In this document: positions 4,499 through 21,602 of the stretch, in pieces
How positions within the stretch are numbered: position 1 is the stretch's first letter
How the letters are laid out: each line of letters starts with the position of its first letter
DNA from: Capillimicrobium parvum
GTDB taxonomy: Bacteria > Actinomycetota > Thermoleophilia > Solirubrobacterales > Solirubrobacteraceae
NCBI RefSeq assembly: GCF_021172045.1
Contig: NZ_CP087164.1
Span: forward strand, 4,898,001 to 4,962,000
Reading direction: 5' to 3'
Length of the DNA: 64,000 nucleotides
The notes under the pieces: model-generated
What the model was told of the DNA's origin: nothing
Seen by the model: the letters and a program-made list of their open reading frames with translations, nothing else
The model's database searches: none
Translations under genes and position numbers: made by a program

Positions 4499-5374
4499 TC
4501 AGGTGGCGGTGAGGCGCGCGCGTCCGGCGCGCAGCGTCGAGAGCATCGCCTCCTCGTCGGCGCGGTTGTCGCGGGCGAGCTGCGCGGTCCCCTCGTCGCC
4601 GGCCGCCCGGGCCAGGCGCTCGAGCTCGTCGTAGGCCTCGATCTCCCGGCGCTCCAGGTCCGCCAGCGCCGGCACGCGCTGCGCCGGCGAGCGTCCCGTC
4701 CCGGCGCGCCGGCGGGCACCGAGGAACGCGCGCACCCTCGCGCCCGCGTCGCGCGGCTTGGAACGGTCGGCGCGCAGCATCCACAGCCGCTCGCGCAGCC
4801 GCTCGGCGTGCCGGCGCGTCTGCTTGTGGTGCAGCGTCAGATCGTGGACGAGCTCGTCGTCCTCGGACTCCGACATCGCCGTCGCGAGCTGCTCGAGCGC
4901 CGCCTGCTCCATCGCGTGCGCGCGCCGCAGCGCGTCCACGAGCGCCGCCCGATGCGCCGGACCGACGTCCGGCCCGCCACCGCCGCGCTCCGGCTGCGCC
5001 CGGGCGCGGATCGCCTCCCGCCGCCGCGGGATGCCGGACGGCGACGCCGCCGTGTCGGATACGAGGCCGTAGTGCTCGGCGATCGCGCGGTCGCGCTCGA
5101 CCGGCAGGTCGTCCTCGTCCGGCAGCGCCGGCGACGACGCCACGCGATCGGCCGACGGCGTGACGCGCACCGCGAACCCGCTCGGCTCCGACCCGGCCAC
5201 CGGCACCGCGCGCAGACCGCCGCCGTGGCCGTCGCCCGCCAGGGCCACGACGAGCCACTCCGGCGCGCCCGTCGCGCGGTCGGCGCGCAGCCCGGCGACC
5301 ACGCCGATCCGCCGGTCGAACGGGTCATAGACCCCGCGGCCGACCCAGCCGCGCAGCTCGGCCGGCGTCCGCAT
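4499..5374 (-). CDS. PRC-barrel domain plus ferritin-like (DUF892/YciE-like) protein
   Basis: The product is 291 aa when started at the ATG at 5372-5374, which shares one base with the preceding TGA (TGATG). Residues 1-85 (LRGWVGRGVYDPFDRRIGVV) form a PRC-barrel-like beta domain, often a tether to a complex or the membrane. After a Pro/Arg-rich linker, residues ~155-285 are four long helices rich in Glu and His (HAMEQAALEQLATAMS, TLHHKQTRRHAERLRE, LERREIEAYDELERLA), the pattern of ferritin-like DUF892/YciE stress proteins. It is the last gene of the formate dehydrogenase end of the operon, so a role in metal or oxidative protection of that enzyme is possible. The function is not demonstrated. 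Confidence 0.75.
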   Translation of the reverse strand: MRTPAELRGWVGRGVYDPFDRRIGVVAGLRADRATGAPEWLVVALAGDGHGGGLRAVPVAGSEPSGFAVRVTPSADRVASSPALPDEDDLPVERDRAIAEHYGLVSDTAASPSGIPRRREAIRARAQPERGGGGPDVGPAHRAALVDALRRAHAMEQAALEQLATAMSESEDDELVHDLTLHHKQTRRHAERLRERLWMLRADRSKPRDAGARVRAFLGARRRAGTGRSPAQRVPALADLERREIEAYDELERLARAAGDEGTAQLARDNRADEEAMLSTLRAGRARLTAT

Positions 5375-5661
5375 CAGCGCGGCACCGCCCACGACGACCC
5401 CTGCGCCGTGATCTTGCGCTCGACGTCCCACGAACCGCCCGCCCAGCGCACCTCGGCGACGAGCCGTCCGTCGTCAGCGGTGACGATCCGCCCCGCCTTC
5501 GCGCCGCCCGGCTGCACGACCAGCTTGCGCTCGCCGGACAGCGCGCCGTCCACGATCTGCTGGAAGCGCTCGGCGGCGAACGAGCCGACCCGCTGGTCGT
5601 TGATCGTCGTCGCCAGCGCGTTCAGCGCCCGCGACACCTCGACGTCGGTGGGCAGCGTCAC
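5374..5661 (-). CDS. Unknown 95-aa protein of the formate dehydrogenase operon
   Basis: The GTG start at 5659-5661 overlaps the nrfD stop by 4 nt and its TGA overlaps the next ATG by one base, so it is translated as part of the operon. The N-terminal half (TDVEVSRALNALATTIND, then VGSFAAERFQQIVDGALSG) is predicted helical. The C-terminal half alternates basic and hydrophobic residues (ERKLVVQPGG, LVAEVRWAGGSWDVERKI) like a small beta-sheet. There is no signal peptide, membrane segment or cysteine. I do not recognise a family. Position suggests a soluble assembly or regulatory factor for the formate dehydrogenase. Confidence 0.75.
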   Translation of the reverse strand: MTLPTDVEVSRALNALATTINDQRVGSFAAERFQQIVDGALSGERKLVVQPGGAKAGRIVTADDGRLVAEVRWAGGSWDVERKITAQGSSWAVPR

Positions 5662-6602
5662 CGCCGCACCGCCGTCCTGATCGCGCCGAGGCCGCGCCGC
5701 GTCCGCACCCGGTCGCGCTGCGGCCCGACCGTGTAGCTCGGGTCGCGGGCCGAGATCAGCCCCGCCTTGAACACGCTCCAGCGCTCGCACGCCGCCCCCG
5801 CCAGCACCATCGCACCGCCTGCCACCGCGGCCGCCCGGCGCCGCCGGGCCGCGCCCGCGAGCAGCAGCGCGCCCGTCGCGGTCAGCAGCCGCGCTGCCCG
5901 GGTGAACGGCTCGGCGTCGGGCGAGTGATACGGGTCGGCGAGCTCGTCGAGCCGGTGCTCCATGACCTGCACCGCGACCAGCTCGCCGAGCGACCCGAGC
6001 ACCGCCAGCCGCCGCGCCGGCCCGGCGCTCGCCACCGGCGTGAGCATCGCGGCCGTCGCCCCCGCGCTCGCCGCGGCGCCCGACGCGAAGATCGCCGGCA
6101 GCTCGCGGTGCGCCTCGTGCCAGACCGGCACCGCGGTCTGGGCGATGAGCGCGGCCGTGTACGTCGACAGCGGCAGCCCCGCCACCGCCGCGACCGGGCG
6201 CGCGACCGCCGACATCCGCGCCAGGCGCCCCGTCGCCGAGTTCACCGCCGCCACCCCCGTCGCCGTCCCGCTCACCACCAGGATCCACGAGCCGACGCTC
6301 ATCGGCGAGGTGACCTTGAACATGCGCAGCATGTTCAAGAAGCGCTTGGGCACGCCGAGGTCGGAGATCAGCAGCGCCGGGCTGATGCCCACGCCGCCCA
6401 GCGCCGCCAGCCACGCGCGCCGCGCGAGCACGTCGTTGCCGGTCCGCCCGGCGAGGTACGCCAGGCCGGCGGACGCGCCGCCCAGCCCGCCGGCGAAGAA
6501 GTACCAGGGGATCTGCGGCGTCCAGATCGGCTCCTTGATGACCGGCTGGCCGTAGTAGGAGCGCGGCGGCCCGCCGTTCGTGGCTGGCACGGTCGCGCTC
6601 AC
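5658..6602 (-). CDS. nrfD: NrfD/PsrC-type membrane quinone-interacting subunit of formate dehydrogenase
   Basis: The 314-aa polytopic protein (about eight membrane segments) has the NrfD/polysulfide-reductase signature near its N-terminus: WYFFAGGLGGASAGLAYLAG, then GISPALLISDLGVPKRFLNM. A tyrosine-rich leader (PRSYYGQPVIKEPIWTPQIPW) also fits the family. NrfD subunits accept electrons from a 4x[4Fe-4S] partner and exchange them with menaquinone without heme. It replaces the usual di-heme cytochrome b (FdnI) of formate dehydrogenase-N. The start is GTG, overlapping the fdhB stop by 4 nt. Confidence 0.9.
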   Translation of the reverse strand: MSATVPATNGGPPRSYYGQPVIKEPIWTPQIPWYFFAGGLGGASAGLAYLAGRTGNDVLARRAWLAALGGVGISPALLISDLGVPKRFLNMLRMFKVTSPMSVGSWILVVSGTATGVAAVNSATGRLARMSAVARPVAAVAGLPLSTYTAALIAQTAVPVWHEAHRELPAIFASGAAASAGATAAMLTPVASAGPARRLAVLGSLGELVAVQVMEHRLDELADPYHSPDAEPFTRAARLLTATGALLLAGAARRRRAAAVAGGAMVLAGAACERWSVFKAGLISARDPSYTVGPQRDRVRTRRGLGAIRTAVRR

Positions 6603-7489
6603 CGCCGCCCCCCGAGGAACGCGCCGGCCAGCGCGGCGCCGAGGCCGGCGGCCGCCAGCCCCGCCGCCGCCCAGATCGAGCCGATGTCGCGGGTGGTGTC
6701 CACCGGGTCCGGGGGCAGTCCGTAGACCTCCGGATCGTCGAGCAGCAGGAAGAACGCGCCGGCGCCGCCGACCCCGTCCTCGGAGTCGGCGAGGTACAGC
6801 TGCGCGTCGTCCTGGCCGGCCGCGGCCAGCTGCTCCAGCCGCCGGCCGGCCCGCTCGCGCAGCTCGTCGAGCTCGCCGAACTGGATCGAGTTCGTCGGGC
6901 ACGCCTGCGCGCATGCCGGCTCCTTGTCGTCCTTGAGCCGGTCGTAGCAGAGCGTGCACTTCCACACGCGCCCGTCGCCCTCGCGCTGGTCGAGGACGCC
7001 GAACGGGCAGGCCGGCACGCAGTAGCCGCAGCCGTTGCAGATGTCCTGCTGGACGACGACCGTGTCGAACTCGGTGCGGAACAGCGCCCCGGTCGGGCAG
7101 ACCTCCAGGCAGGCGGCGTGCGTGCAGTGCTTGCAGACGTCGGAGGCCATGAGCCAGCGCATGCCGTCGGCCTCCTGGTAGGTCTGCAGGCCGGTCTCGT
7201 CGACGAGCGCGTCGAGCGCCGCCGCCTCGACGAGCGACTCCGCCGCCGCGTCCACGCCCATGGGCCTGCGCTGCTCGACGAACGCCACGTGGCGCCAGGT
7301 GTTCGCCCCGAGGTCGATCGTGTTGTCGTACGAGTTGCCGGTGAAGCCCTGGATCGACTCCGGCACGCGGTTCCACTCCTTGCACGCCACCTCGCAGGCC
7401 TTGCACCCGATGCAGATCGACGTGTCCGTGAAGAAGCCGACGCGCGGCTTCGCCTCCGCGCCGTAGGTGCGCACCTCGAGGCGGCTCAC
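6599..7489 (-). CDS. fdhB: Formate dehydrogenase iron-sulfur subunit (four [4Fe-4S] clusters)
   Basis: The 296-aa ferredoxin-like electron-transfer subunit has cluster cysteines in CIGCKACEVAC (Cys26, 29, 32, 36), CKHCTHAACLEVCP, CNGCGYCVPACP and CTLC...CAQACP, giving four [4Fe-4S] sites as in FdnH/FdoH. GFFTDTSICIGCKACEVACK is the family hallmark. The C-terminus carries a single hydrophobic helix (WAAAGLAAAGLGAALAGAF) that should anchor it next to NrfD. There is no twin-arginine signal, so the hydrophilic part is expected on the cytoplasmic side. It passes electrons from FdhA to NrfD. GTG start, 4-nt overlap with fdhA. Confidence 0.95.
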   Translation of the reverse strand: MSRLEVRTYGAEAKPRVGFFTDTSICIGCKACEVACKEWNRVPESIQGFTGNSYDNTIDLGANTWRHVAFVEQRRPMGVDAAAESLVEAAALDALVDETGLQTYQEADGMRWLMASDVCKHCTHAACLEVCPTGALFRTEFDTVVVQQDICNGCGYCVPACPFGVLDQREGDGRVWKCTLCYDRLKDDKEPACAQACPTNSIQFGELDELRERAGRRLEQLAAAGQDDAQLYLADSEDGVGGAGAFFLLLDDPEVYGLPPDPVDTTRDIGSIWAAAGLAAAGLGAALAGAFLGGRR

Positions 7490-10400
7490 TCGCTCGCTCC
7501 CGAGCGACGCCGGTACTCGTCGACGAACGCCTTGAGCGCCGGTCCCCGCGGCCGGCGGCCGGGTCGGATGTCGCAGGTCGCGACCTTGTACTCGGCGATG
7601 TGCACGTTGCGGTCGAGCACGAGCGATGTCAGCTCGTTCGCCGCGTCGCCCTTGACCAGCCCGCGGCGGCCCCAGTGGTAGGGCAGGCCGACGGTCTCGA
7701 TCACCCGGCTCTGGACACGGAGCGGCTGGACGCGCTCGGTCACCATGACGCGCGCCTCGACCGCGGCCCGCGTCGTGACGATCGTCGCCCAGCCCCCGTG
7801 CTCGAGGCCCCGCAGCCGAGCGAGCCGCGGGCTGACCTCGCAGAAGGCCTCGGGCTGCAGCTCGGCGAGATACGGCACGGAGCGCGACATGCCGCCCGCC
7901 GTGTGGTGCTCGGTGAGCCGGTACGTGCCGAGCACGAACGGGAAGGCGCCGGCGCCCGGCTGCGCCGCCGAGGGGTTGTACGGGTTCTCGGGCCGGTGGA
8001 AGAGCTGGCGCGTCGGGTTGAGCTGCTGGTTGTAGAGGCGGTTGACGACCGGCGTCTCCTGCGGCTCGTAGTGGGACGGAAGCGGGCCGTCGACCAGGCC
8101 CTGCGGGGCGTACAGCCAGCCGAGCCCGTCCGGATGAAGGATGAACGGCTCCGTGCCGGTGAGCGCGTCCATGCCCTTGGCGTCCTCCGGCGGCACGTAG
8201 CCGGGCGCCTTGTCGGGCTCGAAGTCCGGCGCGTCGCCGCAGGTGTGCCAGCGGCCCTCCTCCTCGTTCCACCAGATGTAGCGCTTGCGCTCCGACCACG
8301 GCCGGCCCTCGGGGTCGGCCGACGCGCGGTTGTAGAGGATGTGGCGGTTGCCGGGCCACGCCCAGCCCCACTGCGGCGAGATCCAGTTCTCCTCGGTGTG
8401 CGGCTTCTTGCGCGCCGTCTGGTTGATCCCGTCCGCGTAGATGCCGGCGTGGATCCAGGACCCGCAGGTGGTGGAGCCGTCCTCGGCGAGCTCCTGGTAC
8501 TTCGGCACGAACGTCCCGTCCGCCGTGCGGCCGTTGATCTCCTGCAGCACCGTCTCGGCGTCCGGCTCGTCCTGCGGCCCCTGCGTCGGGTAGTCCCAGG
8601 TGAGGTCCAGCAGCGCCCGGTCGCGATCGAGCGCCGAACCCGCGAGCTTCTCGCGCAGCCGGCGCCCCAGGTGGTAGGCGAACCAGAGGTCCGATCGGCA
8701 GTCCCCGGGCGGCTCGACCGCCTTGAAGTGCCACTGCAGCAGCCGCTGCGTGTTCGTGAACGTGCCGTCCTTTTCGGTGTGCGCGGCGGCGGGCAGGAAG
8801 AACACCTCGGTGCCGATGTCCTCGGTGCGCATCTCGCCGGTCTCGATCTCCGTCGAGTCGTACCAGAACGAGGCGGTCTCGATCTCGTTCGTGTCGCGCA
8901 CGACGAGCCAGTCGAGCTGGGCGAGCGCGCGCCGCTGCAGCGAGGAGTTCGCGGAGCCGACGACCGGGTTCTGCCCGATGACGATGAAGCCCGTCGTCTC
9001 GCGATCGAGCATCCGCAGCATCATCGGATAGTGCGAGTGGTCGCCGTCGATGCGCGGCAGGTAGTGGAGGCCGAACTCGTTCTCGGCCGTCGCCGCGTCG
9101 CCCCACCACGCCTTGAACAGGCTGACGACGTAGCTGCGCAGCGAGCCCCAGGCGCCCGTGTCGGGTCCGTTGAGGTGGACGTACTGGTCGAGGTTGTCGC
9201 CCGAGTCCGGGTGCGGCATCGGGATGTAGCCGGGGAGCACGTCGTAGAGCGTCGGGATGTCCGTCGAGCCCTGGATGTTCGCGTGGCCGCGCAGGGCGAG
9301 GATGCCGCCGCCGGGGCGGCCGATGTTGCCCAGCAGCAGCTGGATGATCGCCGCGGCGCGGATGTTCTGCACGCCGTGCGTGTGCTGCGTCCAGCCGACC
9401 GCGTAGCAGACGGCCCCGGTCCGCTCGCGCCCGGAGTTCTCGCACAGGATCTCGGCGATCTGCAGGAAGCGCTCGCGCGGGACGCCGCAGACCTCCTCGA
9501 CCATCTCGGGCGTGTACCGGGCGTAGTGGCGCTTGAGGATCTGAAAGACGCAGTTGGGATGCTCGAGCGTCCAGTCCTCCTCGGGCGGCTCGCCCTTCTC
9601 GAGCTTCATGCCGTGCGCACCGTGGGCGATGTCGCCCGACACGTCCCCGGTCTGCAGCTTGCCGCCGCCGGGAAGCTCGCCCTCGGTGCCGGCGTAGCCC
9701 CACGTGTCGATGAAGTACGCGCGGGCCTCCTCGTCGAAGCCGGAGAAGAGCCCGTCGAGCTCCTCGGTGTCGCGGAACTCCTCCTTGATGACCACGCGCG
9801 CGTTCGTGTAGTGGCGCACGTACTCGGTGAACTCGCGGCCGTTGGAGAGGATGTGGTTGATGACCGCGCCGAGGAAGGCGATGTCGGTGCCCGGGCGGAT
9901 GGCGGCGTGCACGTCGGCCATCGCGCTGGTCCGGGTGAAGCGCGGATCGACGTGGATGACCTTCGCGCCGCGCTCCTTGGCCTCCACCACCCACTGGAAG
10001 CCCACCGGGTGCTGCTCGGCCATGTTCGACCCCATGATGAGGATCGAGTCAGCGTTGGCGAGGTCCTGCTGGAACGTGGTGGCGCCGCCGCGCCCGAACG
10101 AGGTCCCCAGACCGGGGACCGTGGAGGAGTGTCATATGCGGGCCTGGTTCTCGATGGACACCGCGCCCGCGGCCGTGAAGATCTTCTTGAGGAGGTAGTT
10201 CTCCTCGGTGTCGAGCGTCGCGCCGCCGAGGACCGCCACGCCGAGCGTGCGGTTCAGCGGCCTGCCGTCCTCGTCGGCGTCCTCCCACGTGCGCGCGCGC
10301 GTCTCGAGGAAGCGGTCGGCGATCATGTCCATCGCCGTCTCGAGGTCGAGCTCCTCCCACTCGGTGCCGTGCGGGCGCCGGTAGCGGACCCTGTGCTCCC

Positions 10401-10692
10401 GCATCGGGCTGTTGACGTACGCCTCCGACGCGGACCCCTTCGGGCACAGCCGGCCCCGCGAGATCGGGCTGTCCGGGTCGCCCTCGATCTGGACGACCTT
10501 CTCGTCCTTGACGTAGACCTTCTGGCCGCAGCCGACGGCGCAGTACGGGCAGACCGACTGGACCACGCGATCGGCGGTCCTCGTGCGCGGCTCGAGGCGC
10601 GCCGAGCGGCTCGACTGCGCGGCGCGGCCCAGGCCGAGCGGGTCGCCCCGGAGCTGGCGCAGGAACGGCGGAACGGAGATCCGGCTGCTCAT
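7486..10692 (-). CDS. fdhA: Selenocysteine-containing formate dehydrogenase, catalytic subunit (TGA at 10132-10134 read as Sec)
   Basis: FdhA oxidises formate to CO2 at a bis-MGD molybdenum or tungsten site. The frame runs from the ATG at 10690-10692 to the TGA at 7486-7488, 1068 residues, crossed by one internal TGA at codon 187. The reading is continuous across it: SIENQARI-Sec-HSSTVPGLGTSFGRGGA is exactly the metal-ligand context of Sec formate dehydrogenases (compare NQARV-Sec-H in E. coli FdnG). Upstream Cys48, 51, 55 and 83 (CPYCAVGC...RLCPKGS) bind a [4Fe-4S] cluster. Downstream blocks HILSNGREFTEYVRHYTNA and VGLPYHWGRRG are FDH-N/O-like. There is no Tat signal, so the site should face the cytoplasm. 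Conventional gene callers will split it into two ORFs. Production needs SelA/B/C/D, none of which is in the window. Confidence 0.95.
10102..10134 (-). promoter_or_regulatory. Bacterial SECIS element with its UGA codon in fdhA
   Basis: On the coding (minus) strand, 11 nt after the TGA (10132-10134), a perfect 7-bp stem GGTCCCC/GGGGACC closes a GGTCT loop (10102-10120). Bacterial SECIS hairpins lie immediately 3' of the UGA and expose a GU in the apical loop for SelB. The loop sequence GGUCU equals, as I recall it, the E. coli fdhF loop. Stem, loop and distance therefore all fit selenocysteine insertion rather than termination. I did not fold the RNA by program. Confidence 0.9.
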
Positions 10693-10761
10693 CACGCGGT
10701 GTCTTATCCCGCGAGGACGGCATCGCAAACGCGGTGTACGTGGGCGTACCGTGGCGCATTG
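10693..10761 (-). promoter_or_regulatory. 69-nt gap between mrpD and fdhA, possible internal promoter
   Basis: This is the only non-overlapping junction in the 20-gene minus-strand block. It could carry a promoter serving the formate dehydrogenase genes alone, or simply be a leader within one long transcript. No -35/-10 pair or terminator hairpin is clear by eye. Confidence 0.3.
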
Positions 10762-12579
10762 TCAGGACAGCGTCAGCGCGAACAGCGCGGTGAGGACGGT
10801 CGCTCCCGCGGCGGCCCAGGCGACGTAGTCGCCGGGATGGCCGCTGTGCAGCGCCCGGATCCGGTCGGCGATCGCCTGGCCGGGCCGCGGGGGCGCGTTC
10901 TCGCGCAGTCCGAGCACCGCCACGAGGAGCGCCCCGGCGATCGAGGCCGCCGCGTAGAGGAACGCCGTGGGACCCGGGTCGTGGACGTGCGGGACCGCGG
11001 GTGCGGGGACCGCGCGTCCGCCGAGCACCGCGTGCGCGTAGCCGGCGGGGTCGCAGAACGACGCGGCGGCGTCGGCCGCCGCGTGGGCCAGGCCGGGCAC
11101 GAGGCCCCAGGCGAGCGCGCCCGCGACGAGGACCACGCCGGGCGCCCACAGCCACGGCGAGGTGGCCCGCGGGACCTCGCCGGACTCGTCGGCGGTCTCC
11201 TCCTCGCCCGCGTCCGGCGACTCCCCCATCGGATCGTGCGGCGCGCGTGCACCCCACCCGCCGAACACGCGTGCGCCCGCGCGCAGCAGCGCGCCGGCCG
11301 ACAGCGCGCACACGAGCGCGAGGACCGCCGGCACCCACGCGTAGCCGGGCAGCTCGAGCGCCGCGTCCTCGATCAGCGCGCGCCCCAGGAACGAGCCGAA
11401 CGGGGGCGCGCCCGCGATCGCCAGCGCCGCCAGCCCGTACACCGCGGCGATGACGGGCAGCTCGCGCGCGCGCCCGCGGAGCGCCCGGACGTCGACGCGG
11501 TCGTAGCGGTGCTGGACGACCGCCACGCAGACGAACAGCGCGGCCTTCACGAGCCCGTCGCCGACGAGGAAGATCGCCGTGCCGCCGAGGCCGTCCGGGC
11601 TGAGCAGCCCCACCCCGACGGTCATCACGCCGACCTGGGCGATCGCCACGTAGGCGAGCAGCCGCTTGACGTGATGCTGCGCGAGCGCGAGCGCGGCGCC
11701 CACCACTCCCGTCGCCGCCCCCAGCACGACGAGGATCAGGCGCAGCGAGCCGCTTCCGGCGCCCAGCGCGGGCTCGAACGCGGTCCACCAGACGCGCGCG
11801 AGCCCGTAGAGGCCGAGCTCGGAGAAGACCCCGGCGAGCATGATGCACACGGGCGTCGGCGCGACCGCGTAGGCGTCGGCGACCCAGAGGTGAAACGGCG
11901 CGGTCGCGGCCTTCACGAGAAGCCCGACCGCGATCAGCCCGAACGCGACGACCAGGGTCCCGCTCGGCCCGGCCTCCCCGAGCACGCGCCCGATCTGCGC
12001 GAGGTTCAGCGCGCCGGTCTCGCCGTAGACGAGCCCGATGCCGAACAGCATCAGGATCGAGCCGGCCGTGTTCGTCACGGCGAAGGTCAGCGCGCCCTCC
12101 AGCGGGGCGCGCTGGCGCACCTCGTAGCCGACGAGCACGTACGCCGACACGCTCATCAGCTCGAAGAAGACGAACAGGTCGAACAGGTCTCCGGTCAGGC
12201 AGAACGCGACGATCGCCGCCGAGAACAGCAGCGCCACGGCATGGAAGAGCGCCGGCGTGACGGCGATCAGCCGCGCGGCGAGCACAGCGGCGAACACGGA
12301 CAGCACGGCGCTGAAGAGCGCGAGGCCCGTGCCGAGCCGGTCGGCGGCGATGTCGATGCCGAACGCGACGCCGCCGCGCGGCTGCCACCCGCCGAGCCAC
12401 TCGACGACCGTGCCGTCCGCCGTGTGGCCGAGCAGGACCGCGCAGAGCATCGCGCTCGCCGTCGTCCCGCCGAGCGCGAGCACGATCGCCAGGCCGCGGC
12501 GCGACAGCGGCGACGTCACCGCGACGACGCCCGCGCAGAGCATCGGCACGAGGAACGTGAGGGGCGCGACCGCGCTCAT
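10762..12579 (-). CDS. mrpD: MrpD/MbhH-type antiporter subunit (proton-translocating ND2/4/5 family)
   Basis: The 605-aa membrane protein is of the complex-I antiporter family. It has the TM5 glutamate (FVFFELMSVSAYVLVGYE), the TM7 lysine (GLLVKAATAPFHLWVADAY) and the helix-breaking AHAPTPV-like element (VAPTPVCIMLAG), i.e. the Glu/Lys pair used for ion translocation. A second lysine lies in LVGDGLVKAALF. It is about 100 aa longer than usual MrpD; the extra part includes an acidic loop (DAGEEETADESGE) and further C-terminal helices. The ATG overlaps the mrpC stop by 4 nt. It is the only large antiporter subunit of the cluster: no full-length MrpA is present. Confidence 0.92.
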   Translation of the reverse strand: MSAVAPLTFLVPMLCAGVVAVTSPLSRRGLAIVLALGGTTASAMLCAVLLGHTADGTVVEWLGGWQPRGGVAFGIDIAADRLGTGLALFSAVLSVFAAVLAARLIAVTPALFHAVALLFSAAIVAFCLTGDLFDLFVFFELMSVSAYVLVGYEVRQRAPLEGALTFAVTNTAGSILMLFGIGLVYGETGALNLAQIGRVLGEAGPSGTLVVAFGLIAVGLLVKAATAPFHLWVADAYAVAPTPVCIMLAGVFSELGLYGLARVWWTAFEPALGAGSGSLRLILVVLGAATGVVGAALALAQHHVKRLLAYVAIAQVGVMTVGVGLLSPDGLGGTAIFLVGDGLVKAALFVCVAVVQHRYDRVDVRALRGRARELPVIAAVYGLAALAIAGAPPFGSFLGRALIEDAALELPGYAWVPAVLALVCALSAGALLRAGARVFGGWGARAPHDPMGESPDAGEEETADESGEVPRATSPWLWAPGVVLVAGALAWGLVPGLAHAAADAAASFCDPAGYAHAVLGGRAVPAPAVPHVHDPGPTAFLYAAASIAGALLVAVLGLRENAPPRPGQAIADRIRALHSGHPGDYVAWAAAGATVLTALFALTLS

Positions 12580-13911: not shown

Positions 13912-14195
13912 GGCTCGCGCTCCGCGGCGCGGTGCAGCGCCCGGGCGGTGACGTGCGCGAGCACCGGCCCGGTGAACAGGGCGAAGCCGGCGACGAGCAG
14001 CGCCGCGATGCCGATCAGCGAGAACGACTCGCGCACCACCACCGCGGCGGCGACGAGCACCGTCGCGAGCGTCGTGGGCGCGAGGAAGTGAACGCGGTCG
14101 AGCGCGTCGCGCAGGAGCGTGACGCCGAGCACCGCGAGCAGCTGGACGGCGACGCCGGCGAACAGCAGGACCATGGCGCTGACGTCGCGGACCAT
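13908..14195 (-). CDS. mrpG: MrpG/MbhC antiporter subunit
   Basis: The 95-aa three-helix protein has the PhaG/MnhG signature: LGVTLLRDALDRVHFLAPTT, and a last helix FTGPVLAHVTARALHRAAE. The ATG shares one base with the preceding TGA. It is a small structural subunit of the Mrp/Mbh membrane module. Confidence 0.9.
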   Translation of the reverse strand: MVRDVSAMVLLFAGVAVQLLAVLGVTLLRDALDRVHFLAPTTLATVLVAAAVVVRESFSLIGIAALLVAGFALFTGPVLAHVTARALHRAAEREP

Positions 14196-14446
14196 CACCG
14201 CACCCGCTCGAGGAAGTGCAGGAACGCGACGCCGCCGACGAACCCGGTCACCGCGGCGACGAGCGCGAGCGTCGCGAACGACTGGCTCTTCGTCCCCTCG
14301 GCGAGCAGCAGCAGGACGAGCACCGCGTCGGCGCCGGCGGCCTCGAGCGCCGTGACGCCCCCGCGCGGCGGGCGCAGAGCGGCCGCGATCGCCAGCGGGA
14401 CGAGCGCGGCGCCGAGGATCGCCGCCGCCCACAGCCAGGCGTTCAT
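14195..14446 (-). CDS. mrpF: MrpF/MbhB antiporter subunit
   Basis: The 83-aa three-helix protein encodes MNAWLWAAAILGAALVPLAI, then RGGVTALEAAGADAVLVLLL and a final helix ending FLHFLERVR. Size, topology and position between E and G identify it as MrpF. It overlaps mrpE by 4 nt. Confidence 0.85.
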   Translation of the reverse strand: MNAWLWAAAILGAALVPLAIAAALRPPRGGVTALEAAGADAVLVLLLLAEGTKSQSFATLALVAAVTGFVGGVAFLHFLERVR

Positions 14447-14898
14447 CCGGCCGCCTCCAGGCGGTGCTCGACGATCACGCCGCGATCGACGTCGACGTCG
14501 ACGACCACGCCGGCCGGCGCGAGCGAGCCGACGGCCTGCGCGGCCGCCCGGTCGCCCGCCTGCACCGGGTCGTCGGCCTCCGTCGATGCGAACGGCCGCT
14601 CCACGATCCGGCCGTGCTCGTCGCGGCGCAGCACGCCCCGCCGCCACAGGACAGCGACGAGGAGCGGCAGGTCGGTCACCAGGCCCGCCGAGCTGCGCAG
14701 CACCCGCAGCGCCCAGACCGGCCGCACGCGCGTCAGCCGCTCGCGCTGGCTTCGCACGAGCACCGCGCCCGTGGCCGCGATCGCCGCGGCCACGGCGCCG
14801 GTCACCAGCTCGTCCAGCGCGTTCCGGTCGACGAGCGCCAGCCACAGCGCGGCGCTGATCACCCACCACGCCGCCCACGCCCGCACCGTGTCGGTCAT
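14443..14898 (-). CDS. mrpE: MrpE/MbhA antiporter subunit
   Basis: The 151-aa protein has two N-terminal membrane helices and a hydrophilic C-terminal domain ending in a DVDVDRGVIVEHRLE-type strand, as in MnhE. Its ATG overlaps the cytochrome b stop by 4 nt, so the antiporter module is translationally coupled to the respiratory complex, which is unusual. It starts the E-F-G-A'-B-C-D series. Confidence 0.88.
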   Translation of the reverse strand: MTDTVRAWAAWWVISAALWLALVDRNALDELVTGAVAAAIAATGAVLVRSQRERLTRVRPVWALRVLRSSAGLVTDLPLLVAVLWRRGVLRRDEHGRIVERPFASTEADDPVQAGDRAAAQAVGSLAPAGVVVDVDVDRGVIVEHRLEAAG

Positions 14899-16304
14899 GT
14901 CGGCGGCCCGCCTCGATAGCCGCCCGCGGCGGTGCGCACCACCTCCTCGCCGTCCCAGCCGCGCAGCGGGTGCAGCTCCCGCGCCCGCAGCTCCCGGCAG
15001 ACGCGCAGAGCGATCCCGCCGGTGACGAGCGGGGCGACGACGCAGGCGCCGCGGAAGAACCACACCTGGCCCTCGTACGGGAAGCCGATCGAGAGCAGCA
15101 GGCGGTCCGCGGCGCCGGCGGCGAAGACGGTGAACACCCACGTGAAGAACGCGACGCCGACCGCGGTGCGCCACGGGTTGTCGCGCGGGCGGTCGAGCAG
15201 CTCGTGGCGCAGGCGGTCGCGCGTGACGAAGCGCTGCTCGAACCACGGCCACGCGTACAGGACGGCGAAGACGACGCTCGGGAACAGGACCCCGCCGAAG
15301 AACGGGTTGGGGATCCACGTGTGCCCGCCGAAGCGCAGCTCCCAGTTCGGCATGATCCGCAGCGCGCCGATCAGCCAGCCCAGGTACCAGTCGGGCTGCG
15401 CGCCGTTGGTCCCCTGCCACGGCTCGTAGGGGCCCCAGAGCCAGACCGGGTTGATCTGCACGAGGCCGCCGAGCAGCACGAGGACGGCGAACACGGCGAA
15501 CATCCAGCCCAGGGTGCGCAGCGCGTACCCTGGCCACATCGGCGTGCCGACGTCGTTGCGCTCGGTGCGCCCGGGCCCGCGGAACTGCGTGTGCTTCTGG
15601 CGCATGATCATCGCCAGGTGCACCGCGATCAGCGTGCCGAGGATCGCCGGGAGGATGAAGACGTGGGCGATGAACAGCCGCGGCTCGAACACCTCGCTGC
15701 CGGGGAACTGCCCGTCCCACACGAGCGTCGCGAACTGGCCGCCGATCAGCGGCAGCGACAGCGCGACGCCGTTGGCGATCGCCAGGCCCATCCCGGACAG
15801 CAGGTCGTCGGGCAGCGAGTAGCCGGCGAAGCCCTCGAGGATCGCCAGGGCGAGCATCGTCACGCCGACCATCCAGTTCAGCTCGCGCGGCTTGCGAAAC
15901 GCGCCGGTGAAGAAGATCCGCATGAGATGCACGACGATCGCGGCGACGAACACGAGCGCCGCCCAGTGGTGCGTCTGGCGGATGAGCAGGCCGGCGGGCA
16001 CGTCGAACGACAGCGAGAGCGTCGATGCGTACGCGTGCGACATCGTGGCGCCCTGCAGCGGCTCGTAGCCGCCGGAGTACACGGTCTCTCCCGTGCTGGG
16101 CACGAAGAACAGCGCCAGGTACGTGCCGGTCGCGATCAGGGCGATGAACGCGTACAGCGCGATCTCGCCGAGCAGGAACGACCAGTGGTCGGGGAAGACG
16201 TACTTCAGCGCCGCCCTGAGGAACGGCGCGGCGCCGAGCCTGCGGTCGATGAAGGCCACGGGCTCGGCCAGCGGGTCGCGCGAGCGGCGGCGCAGCACGC
16301 TCAC
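14895..16304 (-). CDS. qcrB: Menaquinol:cytochrome c oxidoreductase, cytochrome b subunit
   Basis: The 469-aa subunit contains the b-heme ligands in RQTHHWAALVFVAAIVVHLM and FIAHVFILPAILGTLIAVHL, and the Qo-site motif as PDWY (GAQPDWYLGW), the variant seen in actinobacterial menaquinol enzymes instead of PEWY. FPDHWSFLLGEIALYAF at the N-terminus is typical of QcrB. It oxidises menaquinol and passes one electron to the Rieske cluster and one to the b hemes. GTG start, 4-nt overlap with qcrA. Confidence 0.95.
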   Translation of the reverse strand: MSVLRRRSRDPLAEPVAFIDRRLGAAPFLRAALKYVFPDHWSFLLGEIALYAFIALIATGTYLALFFVPSTGETVYSGGYEPLQGATMSHAYASTLSLSFDVPAGLLIRQTHHWAALVFVAAIVVHLMRIFFTGAFRKPRELNWMVGVTMLALAILEGFAGYSLPDDLLSGMGLAIANGVALSLPLIGGQFATLVWDGQFPGSEVFEPRLFIAHVFILPAILGTLIAVHLAMIMRQKHTQFRGPGRTERNDVGTPMWPGYALRTLGWMFAVFAVLVLLGGLVQINPVWLWGPYEPWQGTNGAQPDWYLGWLIGALRIMPNWELRFGGHTWIPNPFFGGVLFPSVVFAVLYAWPWFEQRFVTRDRLRHELLDRPRDNPWRTAVGVAFFTWVFTVFAAGAADRLLLSIGFPYEGQVWFFRGACVVAPLVTGGIALRVCRELRARELHPLRGWDGEEVVRTAAGGYRGGPPT

Positions 16305-17284
16305 GCCTCGGCCACCCCCCACCACGCCGGCCCGACCGGACCCGACATCGGGCCGGAGGCGCGCAGGACGCCCTCCGCGTCGATCTCGAGCGGCAGTTGC
16401 GGCAGCGGCCGCCCGGCCGGCCCGAAGACGACCTTCGCCGCCGCGGCCGGGTCGAACGTCGAGTAGTGGCACGGGCAGACGAGCCCCGGCGGGCGCGACG
16501 TCGGCTCGTACTTCGGGCTGCGGAACAGCGCGATCGCGCACCCTGAGTGCGTGCAGATCTTCGAGTACGCGAGGATGCCCTCGGGCGCCCACCGGGCCCG
16601 CGCGGCGGGGAGGCGCAGGTCCGCGACCGGCAGGCGGACGAGGATCACCGGCGAGCCGAGCTCGCGCATGTCGGCGCCCTCCGGGAACGCGGTGACGAAC
16701 GCGCCCGGCGTGACGTCCGCGGCGCGCAGCCGCACGCCGTCCTCGGTCATCAGGCGCGTGCCGCGGCGCCACGGGGACTCGCCCGGGCGGTGGTCGACCC
16801 GCGGGCCCAGCGAGGCCGCGGGGACGACCGCGGCCGCCGCCACGGCGGCGCCCGCCGCCCCGCCGGCGGCGAACAGCAGCTTGCGGCGCGAGACGCCCTC
16901 GCCGCCGCGGCGCACCTCGTCGACGACCTCCTCCTGCTCGACGCGGTCGTCGAGCTCGGGCCGCGGCTCGACCTCGGTGACCTGCGGGACGACCCGCAGG
17001 CCGGCGACCATGAGGGCGGCGGCGATGAGGGCCAGGGCCAGGCCGGCGGCGAGGCCGAGCAGCTGGGTGTCGTCGTCGACGACGTAGAAGACGATGAACG
17101 CGATCGCGCACGCCGCGGCGGCGAACAGGAGCAGCGCGACGAGCGTCTCGGCCCGCCGGTCGGCCTGGATCTCGCGCTCGCGCGGGTCGGCCTCCGGCTC
17201 GGGCAGGCCCGTGTCGTCGTGGCGGTGGCGCACGACGCGCTTCCAGACGGCGATCGCGGCGATGAGGCGCGCGAGCAGGCTCAT
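16301..17284 (-). CDS. qcrA: Rieske iron-sulfur subunit QcrA
   Basis: The 327-aa subunit shows the actinobacterial three-helix architecture: TM1 (LVALLLFAAAACAIAFIVFY), TM2 (LGLAAGLALALIAAALMVAG), then a twin-arginine motif SRRKLLFAAGG before TM3. This predicts Sec-dependent insertion of two helices and Tat export of the folded [2Fe-2S] domain. The cluster ligands are CTHSGC and CPCHYS (Cys-x-His and Cys-x2-His) near residues 240-265. It transfers electrons from menaquinol to cytochrome c. The ATG overlaps qcrC by 4 nt. Confidence 0.95.
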   Translation of the reverse strand: MSLLARLIAAIAVWKRVVRHRHDDTGLPEPEADPREREIQADRRAETLVALLLFAAAACAIAFIVFYVVDDDTQLLGLAAGLALALIAAALMVAGLRVVPQVTEVEPRPELDDRVEQEEVVDEVRRGGEGVSRRKLLFAAGGAAGAAVAAAAVVPAASLGPRVDHRPGESPWRRGTRLMTEDGVRLRAADVTPGAFVTAFPEGADMRELGSPVILVRLPVADLRLPAARARWAPEGILAYSKICTHSGCAIALFRSPKYEPTSRPPGLVCPCHYSTFDPAAAAKVVFGPAGRPLPQLPLEIDAEGVLRASGPMSGPVGPAWWGVAEA

Positions 17285-18246
17285 GGGGTGCGCTCCCCGA
17301 TCAGGCGGGCGACCCCGATGAGCGCGACGATCGCGATGAGCCACGCGACCATGCCCTCGGGGATCGGCCCGATGTTGCCGATGCCCCAGCCGCCCGCGTT
17401 GTCGGGCGCGCGCGTCCACAGGACGTAGCGCACGACGGAGTCGAGGTCCGCGTCGCTGATCTGGCGCTCGCTGAAGTTCGGCATCAGGTACGGCCCCGTG
17501 CGCACGGACTCGGCGATCTGGGTCGGCGTCGCGTCCTGCAGCGGCGGCGCGGTCGCGCCGGTGACGATCCCGCCCCGGGCGACGATCTGGTGGCAGCCCG
17601 CGCAGTTGCTGGTGAACACCTCGCGCCCGCGGGCGAGGTCGCCGGCCGCCGGGTCGACCCGCGGGATCGGCGGCCCGCCGAGCGAGCCGACGTACGCGAC
17701 GAGCTGCCGGATCTCACGCTCGGTGTACTGGACGGGAGCGCGGACGGGCTGGTCGTCGGGCTCGGAGAGCGGCATGCGCCCGGTGCGCAGGTAGAAGTCG
17801 GCGGCCTGGGCGCCGGCGCCGTGCAGGTTCGGGGCGCGGTTGGCGATGCCGCGCGCGTCGTCGCCGTGGCAGGAGGCGCAGCCCGACAGGAACAGCCGGC
17901 GGCCGGCGGCCACGTCGCCGCGGCCGGTGATGGGCGCGTTCGTCGCGGTCGCGCCTCCGACGCCGCCGCCGCTCGAGCCCTGCGCGAACGCCGCGGTCGC
18001 GCCCCCGCCGCCCTGCCCGCCGCTCGAGCCCTGCGCGAACGCCGCGGTCGCGCCCCCGCCGCCCTGGCCGCCGCTCGAGCCCTGCGCGAACGCCGCGGTC
18101 CCGTACGCGCCGGCGAGCAGCGCGACCGCGAGCAACGCCCACCGTGCGGCGCGCCGCCGTCGCCGCCGTCGAGCATCGAGATTCTTCGCCGCAGGCTGAG
18201 AAACTCGACGGTCGGCGAGTGAGCGGGGCGGCCGCGGCTCGCTCAT
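17281..18246 (-). CDS. qcrC: Diheme cytochrome c subunit QcrC with low-complexity repeat linker
   Basis: The 321-aa protein has an N-terminal signal/anchor (WALLAVALLAGAYGTAAFA), a Gly/Ser-rich linker built from a 17-residue tandem repeat, two CXXCH heme sites (CASCH, CAGCH) and a C-terminal membrane helix (AWLIAIVALIGVARLIG). This is the QcrC layout that bridges the bc complex to the aa3 oxidase in actinobacteria without soluble cytochrome c. The axial Met candidates are LRTGRMPL and GPYLMPNF. It overlaps both neighbours by 4 nt. Confidence 0.93.
   Translation of the reverse strand: MSEPRPPRSLADRRVSQPAAKNLDARRRRRRRAARWALLAVALLAGAYGTAAFAQGSSGGQGGGGATAAFAQGSSGGQGGGGATAAFAQGSSGGGVGGATATNAPITGRGDVAAGRRLFLSGCASCHGDDARGIANRAPNLHGAGAQAADFYLRTGRMPLSEPDDQPVRAPVQYTEREIRQLVAYVGSLGGPPIPRVDPAAGDLARGREVFTSNCAGCHQIVARGGIVTGATAPPLQDATPTQIAESVRTGPYLMPNFSERQISDADLDSVVRYVLWTRAPDNAGGWGIGNIGPIPEGMVAWLIAIVALIGVARLIGERTP
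17969..18100 (-). repeat. 51-bp tandem repeat inside qcrC (about 2.6 copies)
   Basis: Copies begin at 17969, 18020 and 18071 with exactly 51-bp spacing and near identity. They encode repeats of FAQGSSGGQGGGGATAA in the linker between the membrane anchor and the first heme domain. In-frame repeat units of this kind can expand or contract and so change linker length. Confidence 0.95.
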
Positions 18247-18992
18247 CGCCGCACCGCCTCCCGCCGCTGCTGGCGGCGCTCCTCGCGCGCCAGGGCCCAC
18301 ATCGCCACCGCGCACGCCGCCGGGACGAGCAGCGCCGCGCCGCCGAGCCACATCACGGTGCCCGCGTCCTGCTGGGCGGCGAGCGACGGGTAGTGCGCGT
18401 AGCGCGGCGCGTCGTCCGAGGCGAGCACCGCGCCGACGGCGGTCATCGCGACCATGCCCACCGACACCCAGGCCAGCGCGCCGATCGCGTCCGGCGTATG
18501 CGGCAGCGGGTCGACGGCCAGCACCGCCATCCACGCCACCAGCGCGGTCCAGAACAGCAGGGCGTGCTCGAGCCCGTGCAGCGCGCCCGAGCCCGCCGCC
18601 GCGTCGAACAGCCCGGTCAGGTGCACCGCGACCATCGCCGCGGCGGCGAGCCCCGTCGCCACGGCCGGATGGGCGAGCACCCGCACGGCGCGCAGGTGCA
18701 GCGCGCGCCCGAGCGCCCGGCGCCCCTCCGCGGGCAGTGCCGCGAGCGCCAGCCGGATCGGCGCGCCGAGCGCCAGCAGCGCCGGCGCGGCCGTCGCGAT
18801 CAGCAGGTGCTGGACCATGTGCATCGGCAGGTCGCCGTCCGAGCGCGCCTCGATCGGCCCGGCCAGCGCGGCCGCCAGGACCGCGCAGCCGAGCGCGAAC
18901 GCGGCCGTGCGATGCCATGGCCACGGCCGCCGCGCACGGACGACGCCCCAGACGTACAGGGCCAGCAGCACGACCGGCACCGCGACCATCAT
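18243..18992 (-). CDS. CtaG-like (caa3-type) membrane protein, oxidase assembly factor
   Basis: The 249-aa protein has about seven helices and the CtaG_caa3 pattern: conserved histidines in PMHMVQHLLI, HGLEHALLFW and a proline-rich ALGAPIRLALAAL loop. In Bacillus and actinobacteria this family is linked to copper delivery or assembly of cytochrome oxidase. Its place between oxidase and bc genes agrees. The start is the first of two adjacent ATGs, overlapping the upstream stop by 4 nt. Confidence 0.82.
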   Translation of the reverse strand: MMVAVPVVLLALYVWGVVRARRPWPWHRTAAFALGCAVLAAALAGPIEARSDGDLPMHMVQHLLIATAAPALLALGAPIRLALAALPAEGRRALGRALHLRAVRVLAHPAVATGLAAAAMVAVHLTGLFDAAAGSGALHGLEHALLFWTALVAWMAVLAVDPLPHTPDAIGALAWVSVGMVAMTAVGAVLASDDAPRYAHYPSLAAQQDAGTVMWLGGAALLVPAACAVAMWALAREERRQQRREAVRR

Positions 18993-19330
18993 GAGCGCCG
19001 CTCCGCCCGCCACTCGCGCGCCACGCCGCCGAGCCCGATCGCCGTCGCCCCGGCGCCGATCATGACGAGCCACGGCCCGGCCTCCGCCCCGAACGCCATG
19101 AGCGCCACGCCCAGCGCGGCCAGCACCGTGGCCATCGAGCGCACCGCCACGCGCCGGCGCTCGCCCGGCTGGGGTCCGGTCAGGCGCCCGCGCCACCCGA
19201 GCAGCCCGACGACGAGGCAGGCGAGCCCGGCGCCGCCGAGCAGGGCGATCTCGATCACGTGCGGGCCGAACGCCAACTGCAGCGCGGCGAACCCCATGAG
19301 CAGCGCGCCCCACCCCGCGAGCACGATCAC
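18989..19330 (-). CDS. Small four-helix membrane protein, candidate oxidase accessory subunit
   Basis: The 113-aa hydrophobic protein (WGALLMGFAALQLAFGPHVI, EIALLGGAGLACLVVGLLGW, VAVRSMATVLAALGVALMAF, a last helix before AREWRAERRS) has a GTG start overlapping coxA by 4 nt. It has the size and position of the CtaF/subunit-IV proteins of actinobacterial oxidases, but I see no decisive motif. No CoxC (subunit III) gene exists in the window, so this may take part of that structural role. Confidence 0.7.
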   Translation of the reverse strand: MIVLAGWGALLMGFAALQLAFGPHVIEIALLGGAGLACLVVGLLGWRGRLTGPQPGERRRVAVRSMATVLAALGVALMAFGAEAGPWLVMIGAGATAIGLGGVAREWRAERRS

Positions 19331-20928
19331 GACGGCGCCTCGTGCTTGAGGTCCAGCAGCGGCGCGTAGGACCGCACCGGCGGCAGCGCGTCGAAGTTGT
19401 GCGGCGGCGGCGGCGAGGTCGTCGCCCACTCGAGCGTCTGGCCGTCCCACGGGTCCGGCCCCGCGGGCCGCCGCGCCCGCGTCGACACGACGACGTTGAC
19501 CACGAACACGAGGACGGCGAGCGCGATGACGAACGCCCCGATCGTGGAGACGAGGTTCAGCGCCCCCCAGCCCTCTGAGCTCGGATAGTCGGCGATGCGC
19601 CGCGTCATGCCGTCCTGGCCCAGCAGGAACATCGGGAAGAAGGTCGCGTTCGTGCCGACGACGAGCAGCCAGAAGTGGATCTGGCCGAGCCGGTCGCGCA
19701 GCATCACCCCGGTGAACTTCGGCCACCAGAAGTAGAGGGCCGCGAACAGGCCGAAGGCGCTGCCGGCGAACAGCGTATAGTGGAAGTGCGCGACGAGGAA
19801 GTACGAGTTGTTCGCGTGATAGTCCAGCGGCGGCGACGCGACCCAGATCCCGGTCAGCCCGCCGACGAGGAACTGCACGAAGAACCCGGCCGCGAACAGG
19901 AACGGCACGGTGACGCGGATGCGCCCCCGCCAGAGCGTGCCGAGCAGGTCGAAGTACTCGATGCCGGCGGGGATCGCGATGAGCGTCGACGTGAGCGCGA
20001 AGTACCGGTTCGTCACCCGGCCGGTGGTGAACATGTGATGCGCCCACACGCTCGTCGAGAGCGCCGCGAAGGCGAGGATCGAGAAGATGAACAGCGAGTA
20101 GCCGAAGAACCGGCGGCCCGAGAACGTGGCGAACACCTCCGCCACCGCCCCGAGGAACGGGAAGAACATCACGTAGACGACGGGGTGCCCGTAGAACCAG
20201 AACAGCTGCTGGTAGACGACCGGCCCCTCCGGGCTCGCGCTGAACACCCCGCCGTACTGGCGCTCGACCCACAGCAGCGCCATCGCGACCACGAGCACCG
20301 GGAACGCGAAGCAGACCATCAGGCAGGTCGCGACCATCGTCCACGTGAAGACCGCCATCCGCTTGAGCGTCATGTCGGGCGTGCGGCGGCGCAGGGCGGT
20401 CGCGAGCACGCACGCGCCGATCAGCAGCTCGCCGAGGGTGACGACCGCGACGCCGATCACCCACAGGTCCATGCCGACGCCCGGGGTGTTGATCGTGTTC
20501 GACAGGGGGTCGACGCCGATCCACGTCGCCCGCCCCGGCCCGCCCGTCGTCAGGAAGCCGAGGTACATCGCCACCCCGCCGGCGATGTAGAGGACGAACC
20601 CGGCCAGGACGATGCGCGGTGCGGCGATGTTTCCCGCGCCCACCTGCAGCGGCACGAGGTAGACGCCGAGCGCGAGCGCGATCGGCGTCATGAACAGGTA
20701 GATCATCGTCGACCCGTGCATGGTGAACAGCGCGTTGTAGGCCGACGTCGAGACGACCTGCAGGCCGGGCTCGGCGAGCTCGGTGCGCATCAGCAGCGCC
20801 ATCACGCCGCCGGCGAGGAAGAACGCGAGCGCGGAGAAGATCATCCGCCGGGCGATCCGCTTGTGGTCGGTCGAGCCGACGATCTCCACGATCGACAGCC
20901 GCGGCGGGCGGGCGGCGGCGATTGTCAC
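19327..20928 (-). CDS. coxA: Heme-copper cytochrome c oxidase subunit I (divergent proton channels)
   Basis: The 533-aa subunit has intact metal sites: low-spin heme ligands in FTMHGS and VAHFHYTL, CuB ligands in GHPVVY and WAHHMF, and the cross-link tyrosine (HPVVY). Canonical proton-channel residues are changed: the helix VI Glu (GHPEV) is Val (GHPVV), the D-channel entry Asp (GAPD) is Asn (GAGN), and the K-channel Lys (TGIK) is Glu (AGIE). It reduces O2 with electrons from CoxB. The GTG start overlaps coxB by 4 nt. Oxidase identity is certain; subclass is open. Confidence 0.95.
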   Translation of the reverse strand: MTIAAARPPRLSIVEIVGSTDHKRIARRMIFSALAFFLAGGVMALLMRTELAEPGLQVVSTSAYNALFTMHGSTMIYLFMTPIALALGVYLVPLQVGAGNIAAPRIVLAGFVLYIAGGVAMYLGFLTTGGPGRATWIGVDPLSNTINTPGVGMDLWVIGVAVVTLGELLIGACVLATALRRRTPDMTLKRMAVFTWTMVATCLMVCFAFPVLVVAMALLWVERQYGGVFSASPEGPVVYQQLFWFYGHPVVYVMFFPFLGAVAEVFATFSGRRFFGYSLFIFSILAFAALSTSVWAHHMFTTGRVTNRYFALTSTLIAIPAGIEYFDLLGTLWRGRIRVTVPFLFAAGFFVQFLVGGLTGIWVASPPLDYHANNSYFLVAHFHYTLFAGSAFGLFAALYFWWPKFTGVMLRDRLGQIHFWLLVVGTNATFFPMFLLGQDGMTRRIADYPSSEGWGALNLVSTIGAFVIALAVLVFVVNVVVSTRARRPAGPDPWDGQTLEWATTSPPPPHNFDALPPVRSYAPLLDLKHEAPS

Positions 20929-21518
20929 CGCATGCCCCCCAGGAAGCGGTCGAAGGCCGCCTGGTCGACGGCGCGAACCGTGAAGTGCATGTTCTGGTGG
21001 CGCAGGCCGCAGAACCACGCGCAGACGCCCTGGTAGCGGCCGGGGTGCGGGAAGACGAGGTCGAAGCGCTCGGTGTGGTCCGGCCACACCTGCCGCTGGA
21101 AGCGCAGGTCGGGGACCCAGAAGTCGTGCAGGACGTCGAGGGAGACGGCGTCGAAGCGGATCGTGCGCCCGGCGGGGACGACGAGCTCGGCCTCGCGCGT
21201 GCGCCCGTCCGGGTACGTGAAGCGCCAGTTCCACTTCGCGGCCTCCACGTGCACGGCGAGCGCCGGGCGCGGGGCCACGGCGTCCACCCGGCTCTCGACG
21301 CGGAACGTCGCGATCACCAGCACCACGACGATCGCCGCCACGATGCCGACCCAGACCAGCTCGAGCGTCATGTGCTCGGACGTTCGGCTGGGTTCGCGTT
21401 CGCGCCGGAAGCGCCACAGGAAGACCGCGAACACGACGACGACGAGGACGAAGATCGCGATCGCGATCGGCAGGTACAGGCTCGCGAGCCCGCCGTACTG
21501 CTCGCGGGTGTCCACCAC
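20925..21518 (-). CDS. coxB: Cytochrome c oxidase subunit II with CuA centre
   Basis: I choose GTG at 21516-21518, because AGGGGGAAGGAA lies 6 nt upstream; this gives 197 aa. Two N-terminal helices (LYLPIAIAIFVLVVVVFAVF, LVWVGIVAAIVVVLVIATF) are followed by a cupredoxin domain with the complete CuA motif CAWFCGLRHQNM (C-x3-C-x3-H-x2-M) and the upstream ligand in DVLHDFWVP. It accepts electrons from cytochrome c and passes them to CoxA. It is the first gene of the respiratory block, so the main promoter should lie in the ~85-bp region shared with the divergent DUF7218-like gene. Confidence 0.93.
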   Translation of the reverse strand: MVDTREQYGGLASLYLPIAIAIFVLVVVVFAVFLWRFRREREPSRTSEHMTLELVWVGIVAAIVVVLVIATFRVESRVDAVAPRPALAVHVEAAKWNWRFTYPDGRTREAELVVPAGRTIRFDAVSLDVLHDFWVPDLRFQRQVWPDHTERFDLVFPHPGRYQGVCAWFCGLRHQNMHFTVRAVDQAAFDRFLGGMR

Positions 21519-21602
21519 GGGCGGTTCCTTCCCCCTCAACCGGCGGTGCTACGCGCACAGGTGGTCCGGGTAAGCACCGACCAGGCAACCGGAGGAGGCG
21601 CC

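Follow-up and report, generated by a model that had tools for sequence, protein, structure and literature searches.

Several described membrane systems resemble parts of a 19-gene block of the soil-type actinobacterium Capillimicrobium parvum, located in a stretch of 64,000 nucleotides (hereafter the window; assembly GCF_021172045.1, contig NZ_CP087164.1, positions 4,898,001 to 4,962,000, i.e., 4.898-4.962 Mb of a single closed 5.95-Mb contig). The predicted formate:quinone oxidoreductase FqoABC, whose group FqoC1 is found in Actinobacteria, includes an NrfD-like subunit (PMC8076601). The block shares with it an FdnG-like alpha subunit, an FdnH-like beta subunit and an adjacent NrfD-type membrane subunit, but joins the formate dehydrogenase (FDH) genes to a bc complex, an oxidase and an Mbh-type module, and neither Mrp nor antiporter is mentioned in the text of PMC8076601. 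In the formate hydrogenlyase of Escherichia coli (PMC9474812), an FDH containing selenocysteine (Sec) likewise lies next to an Mrp-derived antiporter-like subunit, whereas the block lacks the large and small subunits of [NiFe] hydrogenase, and its predicted acceptor is quinone and then O2. In its subunits and their order (E, F, G, MbhD, MbhE-F, C, D, no MrpA-N), the antiporter-like module matches the membrane-bound hydrogenase (MBH) and the membrane-bound sulfane reductase (MBS) of Pyrococcus (PDB 6cfw, 6u8y); MbhE and MbhF are fused, as in MBS, and MrpD is nearest to MbhH. Unlike these complexes, the block encodes neither a NuoH-like subunit nor a hydrogenase or sulfane reductase module, and cation-site residues are replaced; compared with the Mrp Na+/H+ antiporters (CPA3; PDB 6z16, 7qru, 7d3u), it lacks the N-terminal antiporter domain of MrpA, E706 and the MrpC histidines. 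The actinobacterial supercomplex of complexes III and IV (CIII2CIV2, QcrCAB plus CtaCD; PDB 7rh5, 6adq, 7q21) is matched in the dihaem QcrC, in QcrA and in QcrB of the actinobacterial type, in QcrB and CoxA being nearest to its chains, and in the CuA site of CoxB; in contrast, CoxA of the block has no D-channel Glu, a subunit III gene is missing, and QcrA, CoxA and CoxB fall below the curated actinobacterial cut-offs. Thus, the parts are known, but their conserved three-way association is apparently undescribed, as far as the open-access literature searched shows: no description of FDH, Mrp, bc complex and oxidase together was found there.

The block runs from 21518 to 4499 of the window, entirely on the minus strand, in the following order (coordinates, strand and gene identities were checked):

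20925..21518, minus strand: coxB, cytochrome c oxidase subunit II with CuA ligands (CAWFCGLRHQNM); PF00116 2e-10, PF02790 3e-5
19327..20928, minus strand: coxA, haem-copper oxidase subunit I; PF00115 425 bits
18989..19330, minus strand: unnamed 113-aa membrane protein; no Pfam or NCBIfam match
18243..18992, minus strand: ctaG, caa3-type oxidase assembly factor; PF09678 9e-55
17281..18246, minus strand: qcrC, dihaem cytochrome c subunit of the actinobacterial bc complex; NF050122 211 bits (above cut-off), two CxxCH motifs
16301..17284, minus strand: qcrA, full-length Rieske subunit; NF050121 206.8 bits (below the cut-off of 275), PF19297, PF00355
14895..16304, minus strand: qcrB, cytochrome b; NF050120 568.7 bits (above cut-off)
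14443..14898, minus strand: mrpE / mbhA; PF01899 6e-4 (below cut-off), assigned by position and recurrence in homologous clusters
14195..14446, minus strand: mrpF / mbhB; PF04066 4.5e-8
13908..14198, minus strand: mrpG / mbhC; PF03334 2.5e-10
13663..13911, minus strand: mbhD-like gene; PF13244 1e-13
12917..13666, minus strand: mbhE-mbhF (MrpB) fusion; PF04039, PF20501
12576..12920, minus strand: mrpC / mbhG; PF00420 9e-19
10762..12579, minus strand: mrpD / mbhH, antiporter-like subunit; PF00361 9e-57, nearest PDB chain MbhH 6cfw_H
10693..10761, minus strand: 69-nt gap between mrpD and fdhA, the sole non-overlapping junction and a possible internal promoter
7486..10692, minus strand: fdhA, formate dehydrogenase, predicted Sec at TGA 10132-10134 (U187); NF041513 1808 bits (above cut-off)
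6599..7489, minus strand: fdhB, [4Fe-4S] subunit; TIGR01582 6e-53, PF13247
5658..6602, minus strand: nrfD, predicted quinone-interacting membrane anchor, FqoC-like; PF03916 1e-8
5374..5661, minus strand: 95-aa protein; no family match
4499..5374, minus strand: DUF892 ferritin-like protein; PF05974 4e-13

The initial annotation of this DNA, made from the sequence alone, had counted 20 genes where 19 were found, and had listed 17 overlaps of 4 nt, two of 1 nt and one gap. The gap stands, whereas the overlaps come to 16 of 4 nt and one of 1 nt (the junction of the 95-aa and DUF892 genes) among the 18 junctions; the mrpF/mrpG junction reads GTGATG, which is a 4-nt overlap with the GTG start and 1 nt with ATG. 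The coupling of qcrB to mrpE proposed there is present as an ATGA overlap at 14895-14898, its two membrane proteins correspond to the unnamed 113-aa protein and the assembly factor CtaG, and its two accessory genes to the unnamed 95-aa protein and the DUF892 protein. Overlaps of the 4-nt type are frequent in operons of GC-rich bacteria and therefore argue for a single transcript, not for a complex. A scan for sigma-70 promoters and terminators yielded nothing exceeding chance. The gap at 10693-10761 contains TTTGCG...GGGATAAG, a possible internal promoter that the sigma-70 scan did not detect.

The block probably encodes an accessory aerobic formate-oxidising chain together with a functionally linked, co-inherited antiporter-like module. 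Evidence comes from 299 genomes of the class Thermoleophilia, to which the window belongs; four aligned MrpD sequences served as the query for the seven-gene Mrp unit. The MrpD type was found in 34 of these genomes, FDH in 55 and QcrB in 58, and all pairs co-occur very strongly (FDH in 29/34 and QcrB in 30/34 genomes with the Mrp type, QcrB in 38/55 with FDH; each p ~1e-20). The Mrp type follows the joint presence of the other two: 28 of the 38 genomes with both FDH and QcrB possess it, compared with 3 of the 37 with only one of them (1/17 FDH-only, 2/20 QcrB-only) and 3/224 with neither. Within the window's own family, the Mrp type is present in 4/8 genomes with FDH and QcrB vs 0/10 with FDH only (p = 0.02). 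Distance matrices, with a linear RpoB control, correlate at r = 0.60 for MrpD-FdhA (n = 15), 0.36 for MrpD-QcrB and 0.39 for FdhA-QcrB (14-15 genomes). This measure is coarse, with a small number of genomes and an RpoB that is doubtful in at least one case (G281), but it is consistent with the linkage.

The genes are also clustered physically. Within 35 kb, Mrp-FDH pairs occur in 13 class genomes, FDH-QcrB pairs in 16 and Mrp-QcrB pairs in 10, with about 0.8, 1.1 and 0.8 expected, respectively; six genomes, belonging to two families, have all three inside ~35 kb (G000, which is this genome, G249, G213, G215, G217 and G261). G249 is the nearest relative by MrpD and FdhA and close to the nearest by QcrB; there, the modules of the block recur at 42-85% identity in the order fdhAB-nrfD-DUF892-95aa; selD-selB-selA (other strand); coxBA-ctaG-qcrCAB; Mrp unit. 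The qcrB gene, fdhAB-nrfD and the Mrp unit share one strand in G213; FDH is divergent from Mrp, with qcrB farther out, in G217, G215 and G261; Mrp converges on the qcr-cox genes in G238; and qcrAB directly precedes mrpE, with a gap of ~0.6 kb, in G210. The gene content of the modules is constant and their order varies (tandem, divergent, convergent). The one operon with overlapping genes appears to have arisen in this lineage by fusion of a conserved but less compact cluster. The initial annotation had named, as evidence that would refute it, modules scattered in related genomes and an order unique to one assembly; the modules are not scattered but cluster across several families of the class, whereas the fused single-strand order with overlaps is indeed confined to this genome in the sample. 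The association itself recurs in relatives, so a peculiarity of this genome was rejected as an explanation.

Several observations weigh against the accessory chain with its linked module. In Streptomyces and further actinomycetes, the Mrp type is frequent but has no FDH, cox or qcr gene inside 10 kb, and in the phylum sample FDH was found in 7/14 genomes with Mrp, with Mrp-FDH linkage in this genome alone. FDH occurs with neither QcrB nor Mrp in ten sampled genomes of the window's family and can thus function on its own, and the module is absent from the three same-genus genomes searched, hence the block is patchy. Furthermore, the sampled genomes are related, their counts are not independent, and many linked cases come from one family. 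Across 76 named loci, the seven-gene Mrp unit is constant, with mostly unrelated neighbours in Streptomyces and relatives. FDH genes lie near the same Mrp unit in L026, L068, L081 and L088 (loci labelled Streptosporangiaceae, Nocardioidaceae, Acidobacteriota and Actinomadura), and the Mrp-FDH link may reach beyond Thermoleophilia.

In the proposed chain, FdhA would oxidise formate at its selenocysteine-containing site on the cytoplasmic side. No twin-arginine signal was seen in FdhA, and formate oxidation is therefore most likely cytoplasmic. Electrons would pass from FdhAB through NrfD to menaquinone, quinone being the acceptor suggested by the NrfD family; QcrCAB would oxidise the quinol, and CoxBA would reduce O2, the two probably being paired in the manner of actinobacterial complexes III and IV. 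The seven-gene Mbh-type module (MrpE, F, G, MbhD, MbhE-F, MrpC and MrpD, no MrpA-N) would share the membrane of the chain and is probably coupled to the proton gradient that the chain builds up. We infer the electron path, the sidedness and the bc-oxidase pairing, whereas gene content and order, the components for Sec decoding, and co-occurrence and clustering in relatives were observed. The chain from formate to O2 proposed in the initial annotation has all its steps represented on paper and is supported by gene content and conserved linkage.

The FdhA protein scores above the cut-off for TIGR01553 as well, as an FdnG-like alpha subunit of the Mo/W-bis(molybdopterin guanine dinucleotide) type (Mo/W-bisMGD). 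It contains one in-frame TGA, and the identical single TGA is present in most FDH homologues of the class and phylum samples. The genome encodes tRNA-Sec and SelA, ~3.6 kb apart, and a hairpin with a GGUCU loop lies 13 nt past the TGA; its folding energy is not significant (z = -0.69), but its loop and position resemble the E. coli fdhF element. The shared TGA, tRNA-Sec with SelA, and the hairpin support the predicted decoding of this codon as selenocysteine. Full-length FDH homologues without an in-frame TGA, in G188 (C1:2992404-2995571) and G292 (C409:1432-4644), are probably Cys versions within a mostly Sec family. In G249, from the same family as the window, selD, selB and selA (L166 592-4737) lie within the respiratory cluster, between coxB and the FDH genes. 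A search for PDB relatives of NrfD by sequence found none. The 95-aa gene is associated with FDH in G249 and G009, and the DUF892 gene adjoins FDH or Mrp in several relatives.

The closest PDB relatives of CoxA and QcrB are chains of actinobacterial CIII2CIV2 structures. CoxB reaches 137.8 bits against TIGR02866, below the cut-off of 147.7, and CoxA is distinct from the aa3 type with the D-channel Glu, the motif GHPEVY being replaced by GHPVVY. Homologues of the 113-aa protein adjoin coxA in G238 and G024. The QcrB of the block is the sole actinobacterial-type QcrB detected in a search of the genome, but a separate bc complex of the b6f type at 5.92 Mb of G000 (L181 7149-9824) rules out the block Qcr as the only bc complex of the organism. 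Given this complex and three COX1 genes in addition to the coxA of the block, the branch appears to be accessory. The L181 complex consists of a Rieske protein, a cytochrome b of the b6 type, and a fusion of subunit IV with a cytochrome c domain. The D-channel Glu is absent from cluster CoxA proteins across the window's family (19327-20928 in the window; L016, L178, L186, L270 and L271), which have GHPVVY or AHPLVY, and some members lack the YS-motif Tyr as well; proton uptake for pumping may differ in these proteins. The cox genes adjoining FDH are of the ordinary GHPEVY type in family f7 and lack the Glu in family f1, so the oxidase is the most exchangeable part.

One possibility for the module is a conventional Na+/H+ antiporter that turns the proton gradient of the chain into a sodium gradient, an idea compatible with the accessory formate chain. 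In Mrp, the cation site includes MrpA E706, MrpC H37 and H40, and MrpD E137, with MBH counterparts that include MbhD E69 and MbhG D37 and H41 (PMC7419157). Alignments show that the block MrpD keeps Glu140 in transmembrane helix (TM) 5 and Lys223 in TM7, and that MbhE-F keeps the acid pair of DTLGE, equivalent to MrpA D792/E796, which speaks for an antiporter of this kind. However, MbhD has Ala59 at the position of E706 and Gln55 at that of MBH E69, MrpC has Ala38 and Tyr41 at those of H37 and H40, and MrpD has Arg400 at the position of the TM12 Lys. Glu at the E706 position is found in 0/94 related MbhD sequences, whereas another Mrp locus of the same genome encodes an MrpA that keeps it. The MrpC histidines proved to be a weak diagnostic, as the MrpC of this second locus lacks them too. 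Across relatives, the TM7 Lys of MrpD and the DTLGE pair are conserved, and the TM12 Lys and Lys345 are variable, most in FDH-linked members of family f7. Given the replaced residues in the MbhD- and MrpC-like subunits, the cation exchange suggested in the initial annotation is doubtful; protons are probably what the module handles, Na+ exchange of the classical kind is questionable, and the conventional antiporter is, on balance, unlikely, if still worth serious attention.

Alternatively, FdhAB-NrfD and the module could be joined in a single membrane complex, with formate oxidation powering the movement of ions in the way that the hydrogenase powers it in MBH and with Qcr-Cox only removing quinol. 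The fdhAB-nrfD genes adjoin the module in 11 class genomes, in tandem or divergently, including the order fdhA-fdhB-nrfD-mrpE...D in G213 and G187, and an Actinomadura genome (L088) shows mrpD-fdhA-fdhB-nrfD; an MBH subunit set without MrpA-N is a form known from redox-linked complexes (PMC7419157), and ion translocation has been proposed for NrfD-like subunits (PMC8076601). Yet a linking subunit of the MbhM/NuoH or hydrogenase kind is not encoded in the block, the module is also widespread where no FDH is nearby, and loss of Lys345 and of the TM12 Lys is more frequent in FDH-linked members of f7 than in unlinked members. Preservation of the TM12 Lys under FDH linkage, considered as a sign of attachment, was not seen; the trend rather runs opposite to the one expected for an attached drive. 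A joint complex is accordingly hard to favour, and a further extension, in which FdhAB-NrfD, the module and Qcr-Cox make up one physical respiratory supercomplex, with formate oxidation at the NrfD-anchored dehydrogenase directly driving an Mrp-derived ion channel without a complex I-like quinone module, is improbable. A physical supercomplex of all parts, as suggested in the initial annotation, is unproven, and only the Qcr-Cox pair resembles a known one; if real, a single supercomplex would be a new architecture in the complex I/Mrp superfamily. A further alternative is a stress or energy island, in which Mrp, FDH and Qcr-Cox are independent complexes clustered for shared regulation without functional coupling. 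Stress-type genes recur around the Mrp module (thiamine pyrophosphate enzymes, short-chain dehydrogenases/reductases, GH15, FAD-linked oxidases), DUF892 lies inside the block, and the modules vary in order and orientation. Against this, the Mrp type follows FDH and QcrB jointly (28/38 vs 3/37), and the distances co-vary after the RpoB control, which makes the island a rather doubtful alternative. Chance neighbourhood or an assembly artefact, to which the unique gene order might point, has a negligible probability: the contig is closed, 16/18 junctions are 4-nt overlaps, and clustering recurs far over expectation. An artefact in particular was rejected given the closed contig and the same modules in G249.

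Complex I is considered to descend from Mrp-type modules; how these came to be joined to redox enzymes is not settled. In the genomes compared, a module without MrpA-N tracks FDH and the bc complex, and since the block encodes neither hydrogenase nor NuoH, the link is directly testable. The findings also suggest a dedicated aerobic formate chain, alongside the main one, in some soil Thermoleophilia, and they yield a naturally occurring set of Mrp-like modules, altered at the cation sites, for studies of mechanism.

Upstream of coxB, on the opposite strand, lies a candidate regulator of the block:

22042..23751, plus strand: divergent PucR/CdaR-type regulator (domain matches GAF, GGDEF_2, HTH_30)

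No homologue of this regulator was detected in the relatives' loci examined. Between it and the block is a small basic reading frame (21602-21890, plus strand), similar by eye to small stress-type proteins, which leaves ~80 bp for a block promoter. Immediately downstream of the block, a SelO-type protein adenylyltransferase is encoded at 2030-3511 on the minus strand.

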